Source: Acidobacteriota bacterium
GTDB taxonomy: Bacteria; Acidobacteriota; Terriglobia; UBA7540
Assembly: GCA_021827245.1 (NCBI GenBank)
Contig: JAKAWN010000381.1
Location: 1-6,568 of the forward strand
Length of the DNA: 6,568 bases
Reading direction: 5' to 3'
In this document: in pieces, positions 1 through 4,860 of the stretch
Layout of the letters: each line of letters begins with the position of its first letter
Position numbering within the stretch: the first letter of the stretch is position 1
Notes under the pieces: model-generated
Told to the model about the DNA's origin: nothing
The model's database searches: none
Seen by the model: the letters and a program-made list of their open reading frames with translations, nothing else
Made by a program: the position numbers and the translations under genes

Positions 1-1499
1 CGCTCTTGCTCAGACGTGATTTTTCGAGAAACGCCGATGTGAGTGATCGTCGGCATATACACCAAGTAGCGTCCGGGCAGCGCAATGTGCGAGGTGATGC
101 GCGCTCCCTTCGTTCCCAGCGGTTCTTTGGCGATCTGGACAAGGATTTCTTGCCCCTCTTTCAGCAGCTCGGAAATTTTGACGGGCTGGTTATTGCTGCT
201 GCGGGGAGGAGTGCGACGCGCGTCAAAGCCGCGCTCGTTGCGGATTCCTCTTCGGCCACGGTGCCGACGAGGCGCAACGCGAGGCCGGTGGTGCGGCTCC
301 CGCAGCGTGTACTGCCGCTCACCGCTGGTCCCGGCCTCAGAGCTTGGCCCGCTTTCAGTCGGTTTGCTTTCAGCCGCCGCGCTTTCTGGAGCATCCGGTT
401 CGGCCGCCTCGGCGGCAGGGCCCTCCAAGGCGTCCCTTTCCCCCTCCACACCGCCAAACTCTGGTTCTATCCAGGATCTGCTCGGCTCAGATACTCCGTC
501 TGCTCGCTGTTTTGGAGTTTCCTCCCGCGATTCACTGACTTCCTGACCGGAAATTGCGGGCAATCCTTCTGAGGAACTAGCAGCGGATGATTGCGAAGGC
601 TCGGACGAAACATTCTCCGTCTTCGGCGCTTGCGGTTTTTCAGACTGCGCGACACGAGAGTCGGAGGCTTGCGGCAACGCTTCCGCCGTTTCAGGCTGAG
701 GCAATCCCGATGCAACATCAACGCCAGCCCGACCCGGTTCGGCGGCGGAGGGCGGGCCGACTTCACCGTTGGTCAAACCTCTCGAATGGCTGTATTTGGC
801 CAACGACTCTCCGGGAAGAACCTCAAAAGTGTAGTGAGAAGAAGGAACCGATGGAGTTCTAGGTTGGGATTCCTTCCAACCCTCGGATCGCTGTGGGAAG
901 CGCTGCTCCCCAAAGCCGCGGCGACCACGCCGTCGCCGTTGGCCGCGATGTTCATGCGGCCTTCGAAAGTCAACTCTCTCGCTTGAACCCGATTTCACCG
1001 CAGGAGTGGTTGGAGATGGTTCTGCCGGTTTGGACACGGGTGCCTCCGCAGGCGTCGGCGGCGGACTCTCGACCGTCTCTGCAGCCGACGGCCGGGCTAC
1101 AACCCCGGGTTCGCCCGGCAAAGCACCCTCCGGCGCGGATGGCGGAGGAGCCACAGGCGTTCCAGAAGCGCTTTCGGCAGCAACCGGACCATGCTCCTCC
1201 ACAGCGGGCAGCGATACTGCCGCCGCCTCCCGGCCTTCCAGTTCTTCCAGCACGCCCTCGAATTCTTCCCCATGTAAAGAAAAATCAGAGACGTAGAGGA
1301 AAGCGTCGCGCTCCAGGCCGATGTCCACGAACGCCGACTGCATGCCCGGCAGCACCCTATTCACGCGCCCTTTGTAAATTCCTCCGACTAGTCCGACGTC
1401 GGTATCACGTTCAATATAAAGCTCTGCCAGAAGGTCGTCTTCGCACACAGCCACCCTCGTCTCGTGCGGAGACGATGAAATAAACATCTCCTTGGACAT
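1..1499 (-). CDS. Rne/Rng-family ribonuclease (RNase E/G), N-terminal part; 3' end beyond the window
   Basis: Partial gene of an RNase E/G endoribonuclease, which cleaves single-stranded RNA in rRNA maturation and mRNA decay. I read the frame codon by codon: 499 codons without a stop, then the window ends. Residues 37-73 (GLVGGIYKGRVNRVLPG, then SAFVDIGLERDAFLYVSDF) match the first half of the S1 domain that opens RNase E and G. Residues 441-495 (ISELLKEGQEILVQIAKE, then GTKGARITSHIALPGRYLVY and GVSRKI) match its second half and the start of the RNase-H-like part. Between them lie about 365 residues rich in Pro, Glu, Ser and Ala, where E. coli RNase E has only a few dozen. This insert holds Arg/Gly boxes at 185-200 and 405-425 and a hydrophobic patch at 223-236. 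The catalytic DNase-I-like domain is outside the window. The start is fixed by a strong ribosome binding site. The intact frame argues against a pseudogene. Whether it should be called rne or rng cannot be decided here. Confidence 0.93.
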   Translation of the reverse strand, partial: MSKEMFISSSPHETRVAVCEDDLLAELYIERDTDVGLVGGIYKGRVNRVLPGMQSAFVDIGLERDAFLYVSDFSLHGEEFEGVLEELEGREAAAVSLPAVEEHGPVAAESASGTPVAPPPSAPEGALPGEPGVVARPSAAETVESPPPTPAEAPVSKPAEPSPTTPAVKSGSSERVDFRRPHEHRGQRRRRGRRGFGEQRFPQRSEGWKESQPRTPSVPSSHYTFEVLPGESLAKYSHSRGLTNGEVGPPSAAEPGRAGVDVASGLPQPETAEALPQASDSRVAQSEKPQAPKTENVSSEPSQSSAASSSEGLPAISGQEVSESREETPKQRADGVSEPSRSWIEPEFGGVEGERDALEGPAAEAAEPDAPESAAAESKPTESGPSSEAGTSGERQYTLREPHHRPRVAPRRHRGRRGIRNERGFDARRTPPRSSNNQPVKISELLKEGQEILVQIAKEPLGTKGARITSHIALPGRYLVYMPTITHIGVSRKITSEQE

Positions 1500-1781: not shown

Positions 1782-2870
1782 TCAATTAACAAACCTCTGC
1801 TTCTTGACGCTCATGGCTAGGCCCAGCCCCAGAAAGACGGAGAGCGCGGCCGACCCTCCTTGGCTCATCAAGGGCAACGGGATGCCAGTAATTGGAAACA
1901 GCCCGATCATCATTCCGACATTTACGGCAATCTGAAAAAACAAGATCGCCGAGAATGTCACCAGTAAGAGCGCCCCCGCGCGGTCAGCCGCTTGTTGTGC
2001 ACCGTCGAGAAGCCGAAAAAGCAGCGCCAAGTAGAGCGCGAGAGCGAGAAGCGTACCGACAAACCCCTCTTCTTCAGCGTAGGCAGCAAAAATGGCATCC
2101 GCATGAGAAACTGGGATGAACCCCAGTTGACTCTGCGTGCCATTTCCCAGTCCTTTCCCCCAAACCCCACCTGAGCCGATCGCGATCTTCGTCTCAGTTA
2201 GCTGATAACTGGCGCCTTGCTTGTTCTGACCCGGATGGAAGAAGGTTTCCAGCCGTTGGCGTTGGTATGGCCGCAAAAAATGCCACCCAACCGGCAAGGC
2301 CAACAAACCCACCACGGCAATCAGACCAACCTGGCGCCGTCGAATCCCCACTACAAAGACTCCCGCCACGACAATCGGGAGAAACGTCAGTGCCGTTCCC
2401 AGATCAGGCTCCAGGGCAACCAACAGCATCGGTACCGCGGTTAACATCCCGACTTTCCCCAACTGCCACCATGTGACAGACTTGGTTCGGGTACGGGATA
2501 GCTCGGCCGCTACCAATACTATTATAACCAACTTGGCGAACTCCGACACCTGCAAAGTGAACCCGGCAACGTGAATCCACCGCCTCGCTCCCCCCCTTCG
2601 CGACCCATCCAGGAGCAGCGCGGTCAGGCCCAAAATTGTGAGGCTGTAAAGCCACGGCGTCTGGTCGAGGATTAAGTGGTAGTCAATCGAGCTCAAGACG
2701 ATGGCAAAGCAACATCCCATCCCCACCCAAAAAACCTGATGTACCCATTGATGAGTAAGGTGCGTCTGGGCTGTCGTGCTATAGATTTCCAGGATGCCGA
2801 TAAAAGAAATACCGAGAGCAATCGCCAGCAGTGTCCAGTCTAAGTCGTGGAAATAAAATGACTTGCGCAT
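1782..2870 (-). CDS. rodA: RodA, SEDS-family peptidoglycan glycosyltransferase of the elongasome
   Basis: Integral membrane glycosyltransferase that polymerises lipid II into glycan strands for side-wall growth, paired with PBP2. The 362-residue product has the length usual for RodA and about ten hydrophobic segments, the first at residues 12-30. Family motifs in order are RRWIHVAGFTLQVSE (96-110), EPDLGTALTFLP (154-165), the extracytoplasmic stretch PYQRQRLETFFHP (201-213), IGSGGVWGKGLGNGTQS (231-247), the region around Asp258 (SHADAIFAAYAEEEGF, 255-270), and GIPLPLMSQGGSA (329-341). Asp258 aligns with the Asp known to be essential in SEDS proteins. Two motifs differ from the common form: QVSE for QPSE, and SHADA for the usual HTDF-type stretch. 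The start follows the mrdA stop by 16 bases and has AAGAGG six bases upstream, so mrdA and rodA are one transcription unit. The PBP2 partner next door and the absence of cell-division genes favour RodA over FtsW. Confidence 0.95.
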   Translation of the reverse strand: MRKSFYFHDLDWTLLAIALGISFIGILEIYSTTAQTHLTHQWVHQVFWVGMGCCFAIVLSSIDYHLILDQTPWLYSLTILGLTALLLDGSRRGGARRWIHVAGFTLQVSEFAKLVIIVLVAAELSRTRTKSVTWWQLGKVGMLTAVPMLLVALEPDLGTALTFLPIVVAGVFVVGIRRRQVGLIAVVGLLALPVGWHFLRPYQRQRLETFFHPGQNKQGASYQLTETKIAIGSGGVWGKGLGNGTQSQLGFIPVSHADAIFAAYAEEEGFVGTLLALALYLALLFRLLDGAQQAADRAGALLLVTFSAILFFQIAVNVGMMIGLFPITGIPLPLMSQGGSAALSVFLGLGLAMSVKKQRFVN

Positions 2871-2886: not shown

Positions 2887-4860
2887 TTAACGTGTCGCTA
2901 CCAGGTCCCACAAGTCGGAAGCCTGCCCGGATTGCATATGCGGCGTCATCCGAGCTTCCTTCTGTCCCCTCATCGGCTGGTTTTCCCGTCTTTCCGAGTA
3001 GTACGCCTTGATGATCTGGCCTGCAACGGGCGCCGCCACACTGGATTCTCCGCCATGCATGACGAGCACGGACACGACGATATCGGGGTCTTTGGGTGGC
3101 GAAAATCCTACGAACCAGGCATTGTCAATGAATCCCCGCTTGTCAGCTTCCCTCCGAAGGCCCTCGCTGACCACCTGTGCCGTGCCGGTCTTGCCCGCAA
3201 TATCAAGGCCCGGGCATTGCGCACCGGCGCCCGTCCCACCCTCGTTCACCACGCCCCACATACCCCTTCGCAGCGCGTGAACGGTTTCAGATTTCAACCG
3301 GAAGCTGGAAATTATCTTCGAAGGTGGATCGCTCCGCAGGGCGTCGAGTTCAGAGCGGAAAGCCAAGTGCGGACGAGCGAATTCTCCACCGGAAGCAACG
3401 CCTCCGATCATATAAGCCAACTGGAGGGGCGTCACCTCAATGGCGCCTTGGCCGATGGCAACGGACATGGTTTCTCCCCGCCACCACGGGTGCTTAAACA
3501 CTCGCTCGACCCAGCCTGGCGAAGGAATCAAGCCGGGCTCTTCGGCTGGAAGATCAATTCCGGTGCGTTGACCGAGTCCCAAATGGCGCGCATAGTAGTC
3601 GATTTTTCCGATCCCCAGCATTTTGCCCAGGGTGTAAAAATACACGTCGCAGGATTCAACTACAGCCCGATGAAAATTTGTCCAGCCGTGACTTTTCCAG
3701 TCGTGATACGTGTGGCCGTAAAAGGTGACTTCCCCCTGGCAGTCCACTCGGAAGCTGGGTTTAATCGTCCCGGTTTCCAGAGCCGCCGCGCCCGTTACAA
3801 TCTTAAAAACCGATCCTGGGGCGAGCTGTGCCTGGATCGCCTTGTTCATCATTGGCTTCTCGGGATCGTTGATGAGTTCTCTCCATTGGGCGGCGGTAAT
3901 GTGACGCGCAAAGTCATTAGGGTCAAAAGCTGGATGGCTGACCATGGCAAGAACCTGGCCGCTTTGGGGATTTAGGGCCACGATAGCCCCAGCCCGGTCA
4001 CCCAGGGCGTTCTCGGCAGCCATTTGAAGATTGAGATCAAGAGTTAGGCGGATGTCGTGCCCAGGGATGGCCTGGATGGATTTGAGCCTTCCCACTTCTT
4101 GACCGCGACTGTTGACGATCAAACGCTGCATTCCGTCCTGGCCCATCAGGAGCGCGTTATATTCTTCCTCAATACCGGACTTGCCGACGACGTCACCGGG
4201 GCGATAATGCGAGCCGGGCGCGGCAATTTCGTTTTCCGAAACCTCGCCTACGTAACCCAGCACTTGAGCGGCGAGTTCGTGTTCGGGATAAAGTCGCTGT
4301 GATGCTTGGATACTATCGAGCTCAGGATATTCAAGGCGGTGAGATTCGACGAACGCCACGTCCGCCAGGGTGGCCGATGGCTTGATCACAATCGGCTGGA
4401 AGCGGGGTAGCCCGCTAGCTTTTTTGATCTTCAAGGCAAGCGCTGAAGGGTCAAGCCCCAGCCCTCGGGCAATGCCCTGAACGGCCGACGGCGTGAGCAT
4501 GGCTGGATTCTCGCGCCGAAGAAGGATTTTGAAAGCGGGGAAATTATCCGCTAGGACGCGCCCGCGCCGGTCGAGAATACGGCCACGGGGCGCGATGATC
4601 GGAAGGGCTCGAATGCGATTCCGCTCGGCTGCCTCCACATACTCGTAATGCTCAGCAATCTGCAAGCGCCCGTAGCCGATCAGCAAGACGGCGAAAACAG
4701 CCGCCATCGAGTATTGGAGAAAGCTGATTTTCCAAGACGGGAAGCGATTTTCCTCCGGAAACCTGAACTGCATCAACCCCAACATTCCCGAGCGGGCTCG
4801 CCCCCGCCTCGCCGCGGCCTGGAAGCCCCGAGCCCGCGCCGCCCGCTCTGCGTCTTTCAA
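2887..4860 (-). CDS. mrdA: Penicillin-binding protein 2 (class B transpeptidase, MrdA)
   Basis: Membrane-anchored DD-transpeptidase that cross-links new glycan during cell elongation as partner of RodA; a beta-lactam target. In the 657-residue reading, a single membrane segment lies at about 45-66 (FLQYSMAAVFAVLLIGYGRL). The class B pedestal domain follows, opening with PRGRILDRRGRVLADN (91-106), and the transpeptidase domain spans about 285-625. All three catalytic motifs are present: S350-V-F-K353 in APGSVFK with the acylated Ser350, S403-C-D405, and K557-T-G559 in AGKTGTAQV. A hydrophilic tail of some 35 residues ends the protein. The start is uncertain. Codons 1-25 are Arg/Ala-rich, unlike a usual PBP2 N-terminus, and have no good ribosome binding site. 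ATGs at codon 26 (4785) and codon 30 (4773, MQFRFPEENRFP) are credible alternatives. An in-frame stop at 4870-4872 excludes any start further upstream. Confidence 0.95.
   Translation of the reverse strand: MKDAERAARARGFQAAARRGRARSGMLGLMQFRFPEENRFPSWKISFLQYSMAAVFAVLLIGYGRLQIAEHYEYVEAAERNRIRALPIIAPRGRILDRRGRVLADNFPAFKILLRRENPAMLTPSAVQGIARGLGLDPSALALKIKKASGLPRFQPIVIKPSATLADVAFVESHRLEYPELDSIQASQRLYPEHELAAQVLGYVGEVSENEIAAPGSHYRPGDVVGKSGIEEEYNALLMGQDGMQRLIVNSRGQEVGRLKSIQAIPGHDIRLTLDLNLQMAAENALGDRAGAIVALNPQSGQVLAMVSHPAFDPNDFARHITAAQWRELINDPEKPMMNKAIQAQLAPGSVFKIVTGAAALETGTIKPSFRVDCQGEVTFYGHTYHDWKSHGWTNFHRAVVESCDVYFYTLGKMLGIGKIDYYARHLGLGQRTGIDLPAEEPGLIPSPGWVERVFKHPWWRGETMSVAIGQGAIEVTPLQLAYMIGGVASGGEFARPHLAFRSELDALRSDPPSKIISSFRLKSETVHALRRGMWGVVNEGGTGAGAQCPGLDIAGKTGTAQVVSEGLRREADKRGFIDNAWFVGFSPPKDPDIVVSVLVMHGGESSVAAPVAGQIIKAYYSERRENQPMRGQKEARMTPHMQSGQASDLWDLVATR

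Follow-up and report, generated by a model that had tools for sequence, protein, structure and literature searches.

The window, by which we mean the whole 6,568-nucleotide stretch of DNA analyzed here, carries at its left edge part of a gene for an Rne/Rng family ribonuclease (Table 1). An open-frame scan found the frame to run without interruption until it exits the window, and the full-length database protein, P0001, is one residue apart from the window translation (S383 in the window, N in P0001). By itself, the 499-residue window piece matches no Pfam family; P0001 matches PF10150 and PF20833, showing that the RNase_E_G catalytic domain is present. Alignment to E. coli RNase E gave an E value of 1.1e-72. 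In the E. coli RNase E structure 2bx2, the AIDIN, DFIDM, and IVRTAG stretches align with D654, D698, R521, and T522, all invariant over 92 rows; we take D654 and D698 to be the catalytic aspartates and R521 and T522 to be the 5'-sensor residues. C756 and C759, invariant over 84 rows, are presumably the zinc-link cysteines. The conservation alignments took in 92 of 120 proteins (A1) and 84 of 240 (A2).

Two genes that share the strand of the ribonuclease gene and lie upstream of it encode a RodA-type cell-shape protein and a penicillin-binding protein 2-like transpeptidase; RNase G of E. coli is likewise encoded near cell-shape genes. Another gene of the window, for a protein of 477 residues containing an L-fucose isomerase C-terminal domain, seems to have no connection with the ribonuclease. 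Two antisense open frames facing the insert and the S1 first half are probably by-products of codon composition.

Table 1 Features of the window, with residues numbered along the ribonuclease
Feature	Residues	Window positions	Strand	Basis
Rne/Rng family ribonuclease	1-499 of 838	3..1499	(-)	Open frame; Pfam on P0001; alignment to solved RNase E structures
N-terminal segment and first S1 half, ending LYVSDF	1-73	1281..1499	(-)	Aligned to 2bx2 and 4oxp
Disordered S1 insert	74-437 (364)	189..1280	(-)	Alignment gap against E. coli RNase E; composition; pLDDT
Acidic leader with predicted helix, GEEFEGVLEELEGREA	77-92	1224..1271	(-)	Low-confidence helix in both models; partly conserved
Arginine-rich block 1	178-201	897..968	(-)	At least 7 K/R in 14
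Conserved short linear motif, FEVLPGESLAKY	225-236	792..827	(-)	Conservation over 92 sequences
Acidic stretch	344-388	336..470	(-)	Net charge -9 over 344-373, -7 over 359-388
Second conserved motif with arginine-rich block, TLREPHHRPRVAPRRHRGRRGIRNERG; consensus TLREPHxRPRFAPRRRRGRR	398-424	228..308	(-)	Conservation
S1 resumes, KISELLKEGQEILVQI	438-499 in window	3..188	(-)	2bx2 and 4oxp alignment
RodA-type cell-shape protein		1782-2870	(-)	PF01098
Penicillin-binding protein 2-like transpeptidase		2887-4860	(-)	PF00905 and PF03717
Protein with L-fucose isomerase C-terminal domain	477 aa	5009-6442	(-)	PF02952
Antisense open frame	189 aa	3-572	(+)	
Antisense open frame	196 aa	893-1483	(+)	

A long disordered insert within the S1 domain

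Two solved structures place the insert. In 2bx2, the stretches that align to residues 3–73 and 437–803 are separated by 12 chain residues, against 363 in P0001. In the Caulobacter RNase E structure 4oxp, chain residues 21–93 align to residues 1–72 and chain residues 163–289 to residues 438–563, with 69 residues at the same junction. The second aligned stretch begins at residue 437 opposite 2bx2 chain position 93, and at residue 438 opposite 4oxp chain position 163. An earlier note on this DNA, made from the letters alone, had described an S1 domain split by a disordered insert of about 365 residues where E. coli RNase E has a short loop, and the alignment gap, composition, and low pLDDT bear this out, with a measured length of 364 residues and an E. 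coli junction of about 12. Its coordinates held in part: the first S1 half does end at residue 73, but the left end it gave, position 225, corresponds to residue 425, and the insert ends near position 189. The note was also inconsistent here, as its own junction at about residue 441 falls at about window position 179, not 225.

The insert is an unbroken, in-frame stretch of the Pro/Glu/Ser/Ala-rich, aromatic-poor kind that the same note had recognized. Pro, Glu, Ser, and Ala account for 51% of its residues, and Lys, Arg, Asp, and Glu for 28%; aromatic residues make up 3.3%, against 9.6% and 5.2% in two parts of the core, and hydrophobic residues 13.7%, against 41% and 34%. A charge-hydropathy comparison puts it with disordered sequences (0.385, with the boundary at 0.426), and its start is acidic, with a net charge of -8 over residues 74–103. 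Codon positions 1/2/3 differ from the nearest named locus (L001) at 0.48/0.48/0.74 in the insert and 0.14/0.08/0.51 in the first core part, differences that fit a loosely constrained coding sequence in the insert.

AlphaFold returned ten-residue block means of about 36–52 pLDDT across the insert, and a helix near its start at low confidence (residues 77–95 in one run, 81–92 in the other). Both runs had shallow alignments, both left unclosed the S1 fold that the earlier note had expected to close, and both gave much of the first S1 half a pLDDT below 50 (residues 32–75 and 34–84), probably because the alignments were shallow.

Distribution of the insert and of C-terminal tails

Both edges of the insert were recognized in 107 of the 120 best homologues listed, and all 107 carry it, at 331–408 residues. 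It is also present in each of the 73 named loci, out of 80, in which it could be measured (seven have no measurable first half), with lengths of 309–706 residues; these loci are mostly assigned to Terriglobia, Bryobacterales, Acidobacteriaceae, and similar groups. One of them, L039, is labeled Nevskia soli, a gammaproteobacterial name, and encodes a Terriglobia-like ribonuclease with a 446-residue insert and the motif described below; it is probably a mislabeled assembly.

Across the phylum, 172 of 199 sampled genomes had an RNase_E_G match. We took one gene each from 104 of the 172, chosen roughly by PF10150 score, so that low-scoring genes are under-represented; 99 were measurable, the other five having no measurable first half. 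Inserts longer than 60 residues occur in 62 of the 99, the longest reaching 805. In a quick, midpoint-rooted tree of the catalytic part (120 rows, including 15 of the 73 measurable named loci, long branches flagged), the insert-bearing genes form one clade of 79 rows (SH-aLRT 98) that also takes in one form with an insert of 57 residues; support is weak on some inner branches. Insert length by subclade runs 57–93, 115–120, 131–304, 167–314, 299–452, and 332–553 residues, and 309–805 in the window's clade. The position of the insert is fixed across orthologues while its sequence varies, the pattern that the earlier note had proposed to look for.

None of the 135 insert-bearing proteins measured has a tail, the C-terminal overhang beyond the catalytic core being at most 8 residues in all of them. 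Proteins with tails group apart, in a clade of 16 rows (support 100); their tails measure 67–300 residues and their S1 loop is short. This clade includes L093, L096, L104, L106, and L110, and in several of its genomes a shorter frame gives another RNase_E_G match. None of 62 insert genes, against 15 of 37 short-insert genes, has a tail or long N-terminal frame (Fisher p 4e-8, a value that ignores kinship), tails alone accounting for 12 of the 37. The association reflects few events and is mostly one phylogenetic pattern. Because the tailed proteins form one separate clade, "relocation" of a scaffold from tail to loop is an interpretation, and a C-terminal tail may have been absent from the S1-insert lineage all along. 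An N-terminal extension as a third scaffold position was considered for the four flagged short-insert genes among the 37 (L115, L116, L133, L139) and not used. That of L115 is probably a non-coding open frame: its near-twin L109 has no extension, and the upstream frame of L115 has no Met. In L133 an upstream Met is present.

The short acidobacterial RNase E/G shares its catalytic core with the insert-bearing form. The 120 listed homologues of L081, a protein of this short form, seven of them named Thermoanaerobaculia, have 492–598 residues (median 497), and the L081 junction measures 30 residues.

The insert-bearing enzyme is probably the main RNA-decay endonuclease of its class: among 31 genomes sampled from that class (the one that holds G001), every one has a single RNase E/G match and one has RNase Y, absence calls that depend on genome completeness. 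RNase J scored over the cut-off in all 31 genomes and PNPase in 30, the 31st having an S1-domain match alone.

Conserved motifs and charge patches in the insert

Most insert positions vary in an alignment of 116 relatives (those of the 120 homologues longer than 770 residues), and three places stay constant: an arginine-rich block near residues 185–195, FEILPGESLAKY at residues 225–236, and TLREPHxRPRFAPRRRRGRR at residues 398–417. In the 92-sequence alignment, 30 positions of the insert reach 90% conservation or more. The insert therefore carries features of its own, conserved motifs at residues 178–201, 225–236, and 398–424.

One of these, FEILPGESLAKY, is near-invariant, occurs in one to three copies per insert, and has the clade-wide form LPGESLAKY. 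L228, P229, G230, E231, and L233 do not vary across the 92 sequences, and each of the 120 best homologues listed has exactly one copy of the LPGES motif. Of 73 named inserts, 72 match the strict pattern: 67 hold a single copy, four hold two, and one holds three. The exception, L014, has a variant, and no match arose in 14,600 shuffled inserts. The sampled genes that bear the motif number 20, of which 14 are multi-copy, 12 with two copies 46–81 residues apart and two with three. At the DNA level, a degenerate pattern for LPGES-like motifs matched 51 of 61 genomes, against 7 of 61 for the reversed control. Of 30 matches followed up at their loci, 22 fall in long frames whose surroundings resemble an insert, two in other frames (371 and 169 residues), five in frames of fewer than 100 residues, and one in no frame; a second protein bearing such a motif may exist. 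PGESLGRF-type sequences also occur outside the ribonuclease in G211, G212, G219, G231, G232, G238, and G253; one match of this type, L205, sits in a 15-residue frame.

Other insert-bearing clades have other motifs. LPGES was absent from all 120 listed homologues (P0241–P0360) of a related, Blastocatellia-type set represented by L168 and named in part Blastocatellia or Pyrinomonadaceae, a set in which FER[IV]x[DE][DE] occurs in 120 of 120, twice in 111, against 3 of 6000 shuffles. The same pattern occurs, in up to three copies, in 16 of 17 related loci, and in none of 120 Terriglobia-type and none of 120 short proteins; neither LPGES nor FERI was found in the 120 listed short-form homologues of L081. 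In the third insert clade, which takes in L136, L137, L143, L146, L147, L153, L159, L163, and L180, nine of ten inserts contain [IV]LPxx[LIFM], eight of them twice, a pattern seen in 1.1% of shuffles. We considered whether the LPGESL of Terriglobia and the ILPxxL of this clade (clade D) share an origin and rejected the idea, as the spacing differs and the clade-D pattern occurs in one of 73 Terriglobia inserts.

In block 1, G186, R187, R188, G192, and R193 are at least 90% conserved; in the second motif, the same level is reached by the consensus residues T398, L399, R400, E401, R405, P406, A409, P410, R411, R413, R414, G415, and R416, the window protein having H at 413 against the consensus R. 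The window insert holds two blocks with at least 7 K/R in 14 residues, compared with a mean of 0.07 in shuffles, and none at the stricter density of 8 in 14. At 8 or more K/R in 14, five of 127 inserts have no block, 54 have one, 57 two, and 11 more, so that 122 have at least one; an arginine-rich block lies within 40 residues of the insert end in only 34 of 127. Acidic and basic patches alternate in the window insert (z 3.8, a value equalled or exceeded in 1 of 1000 shuffles), and charge patchiness exceeds z 3 against shuffles in 119 of 127 inserts and in 0 of 127 catalytic cores.

The insert as a putative scaffold, and its relation to known systems

By analogy with described RNase E enzymes, the insert is on balance probably an expanded S1 surface loop that has been turned into the protein's scaffold and RNA-binding region, and it may do the partner-recruiting job of the E. 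coli tail. Pointing this way are its location at one junction in all the relatives measured, its disordered composition, its conserved arginine-rich blocks, its charge patches, LPGESLAKY, and the lack of a C-terminal tail in the insert-bearing proteins measured. The arginine-rich blocks would bind RNA, the role that AR1-type motifs have in the RNase E of Pseudomonas and E. coli, and the LPGES motif would be the docking site for another degradosome component, for instance PNPase, RNase J, or a DEAD-box helicase. Since both its ends are fixed next to the RNA path of S1, the loop would hold partners and RNA at the RNA entrance, not on a free tail. Against a scaffold count the arginine-rich blocks, which are non-uniform among the 127 inserts, and the motifs, which differ between clades and so make no case for one partner site common to all.

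A broader proposal, which we advance tentatively and consider possible, is that the Terriglobia degradosome is built on the S1 loop rather than on a tail, and that other Acidobacteriota follow the same plan with a motif of their own lineage (LPGESLAKY in Terriglobia, the FER[IV] type in Blastocatellia, paired ILPxxL in the third clade), in one to three copies that would dock a partner at the RNA entrance. Acidobacteriota are abundant in soil. If the proposal is true, the S1-loop degradosome would be an unreported architecture, and it would belong to a group credited with no degradosome in an older survey; and if the insert is a scaffold, a single catalytic core has acquired the disordered recruitment regions of RNase E at more than one site.

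The insert might instead act as a regulatory gate, its acidic leader helix covering the S1 RNA channel and mimicking RNA so that the enzyme stays off until the insert is displaced, a mode of control suggested for Caulobacter RNase E. The acidic leader does directly follow the first S1 half, and at the same junction a helix of the Caulobacter insert reaches into the predicted RNA site, where, in the available portion of PMC4245959, its acidic residues are proposed to mimic RNA. We consider a gate unlikely as the main role, as the leader helix is of low confidence and only partly conserved, and a gate needs neither 300–800 further residues nor the LPGES and arginine-rich motifs.

That the insert mainly promotes phase separation with RNA, like an alpha-proteobacterial tail, draws on the alternating charge patches, which stand well above shuffles. 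Many disordered proteins may show charge patterning by itself, and the exact conservation of LPGESLAKY would be left unexplained; we regard this role, argued by analogy, as rather improbable. The parallel is Sinorhizobium RNase E, where alternating charge patches are among the features tied to phase separation and BR-bodies, patches that lie in its tail (PMC12691583, in the part available). Together with the insert's own charge patches, this makes recruitment or condensates reasonable proposals, and both a gate-like helix and condensate promotion could hold together with a scaffold role.

Passive growth of a tolerated surface loop, drifting in length with little or no function, would account for the spread from 57 to 805 residues within one clade and for the many unconserved positions. 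It fits poorly with 30 positions conserved to at least 90%, with a motif in 72 of 73 inserts and no shuffle, and with charge patterning in 119 of 127, and we give it little credence. A frameshift, misassembly, or two genes read as one can safely be set aside: the earlier note had raised splitting, and the frame is unbroken in many independent assemblies, no stops occur inside the listed matches, the window insert contains no Met from which an ATG second start could be read, and the codon-position pattern is that of coding sequence.

Among known systems, the scaffold read here into the S1 loop has its functional counterpart in the C-terminal region of E. coli and Pseudomonas RNase E, which is likewise disordered and bears arginine-rich and other short motifs; in Pseudomonas, the arginine-rich AR1 binds RNA and RhlB (both from the available portion of PMC11964227). 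That scaffold, however, is a free C-terminal tail with other partner motifs, whereas the acidobacterial one would be a loop closed inside S1. For the Fibrobacteres/Acidobacteria group, a 2011 survey listed an RNase E/G of 511 residues and predicted no degradosome (PMC3071783, as excerpted); the open frames in our 31 genomes of the class span 762–1311 residues.

The positional counterpart is found in other S1 inserts. According to the available text of PMC4245959, S1 inserts of 50–150 residues occur at this site in alpha-proteobacteria, including Caulobacter, and in plants. In the same text, the Caulobacter crescentus insert (PDB 4OXP) is charged and predicted to be disordered, varies between species in sequence and length, and belongs to a fragment that binds RhlB; what is available of that account makes no mention of LPGESLAKY. 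Deletion of the S1 insert of plant chloroplast RNase E greatly lowered activity (as cited in that text); this insert also lies within S1, and is set apart by belonging to an organelle enzyme and, as described there, by a length within the 50–150 range. The acidobacterial insert is similarly highly charged and predicted to be disordered, and differs in size, with 364 residues here and up to 805 in relatives against about 69 in Caulobacter, so that the reported range is exceeded here, while some acidobacterial relatives (57–145 residues) fit it. Caulobacter RNase E also has a disordered C-terminal domain bearing partner sites (PMC4245959, same portion), which the measured insert-bearing proteins lack. 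Among the papers listed by searches of the open-licence literature, none dealt with an acidobacterial S1 insert of RNase E/G. S1 inserts as such are already published, and the acidobacterial form appears to be a new version of that known type.
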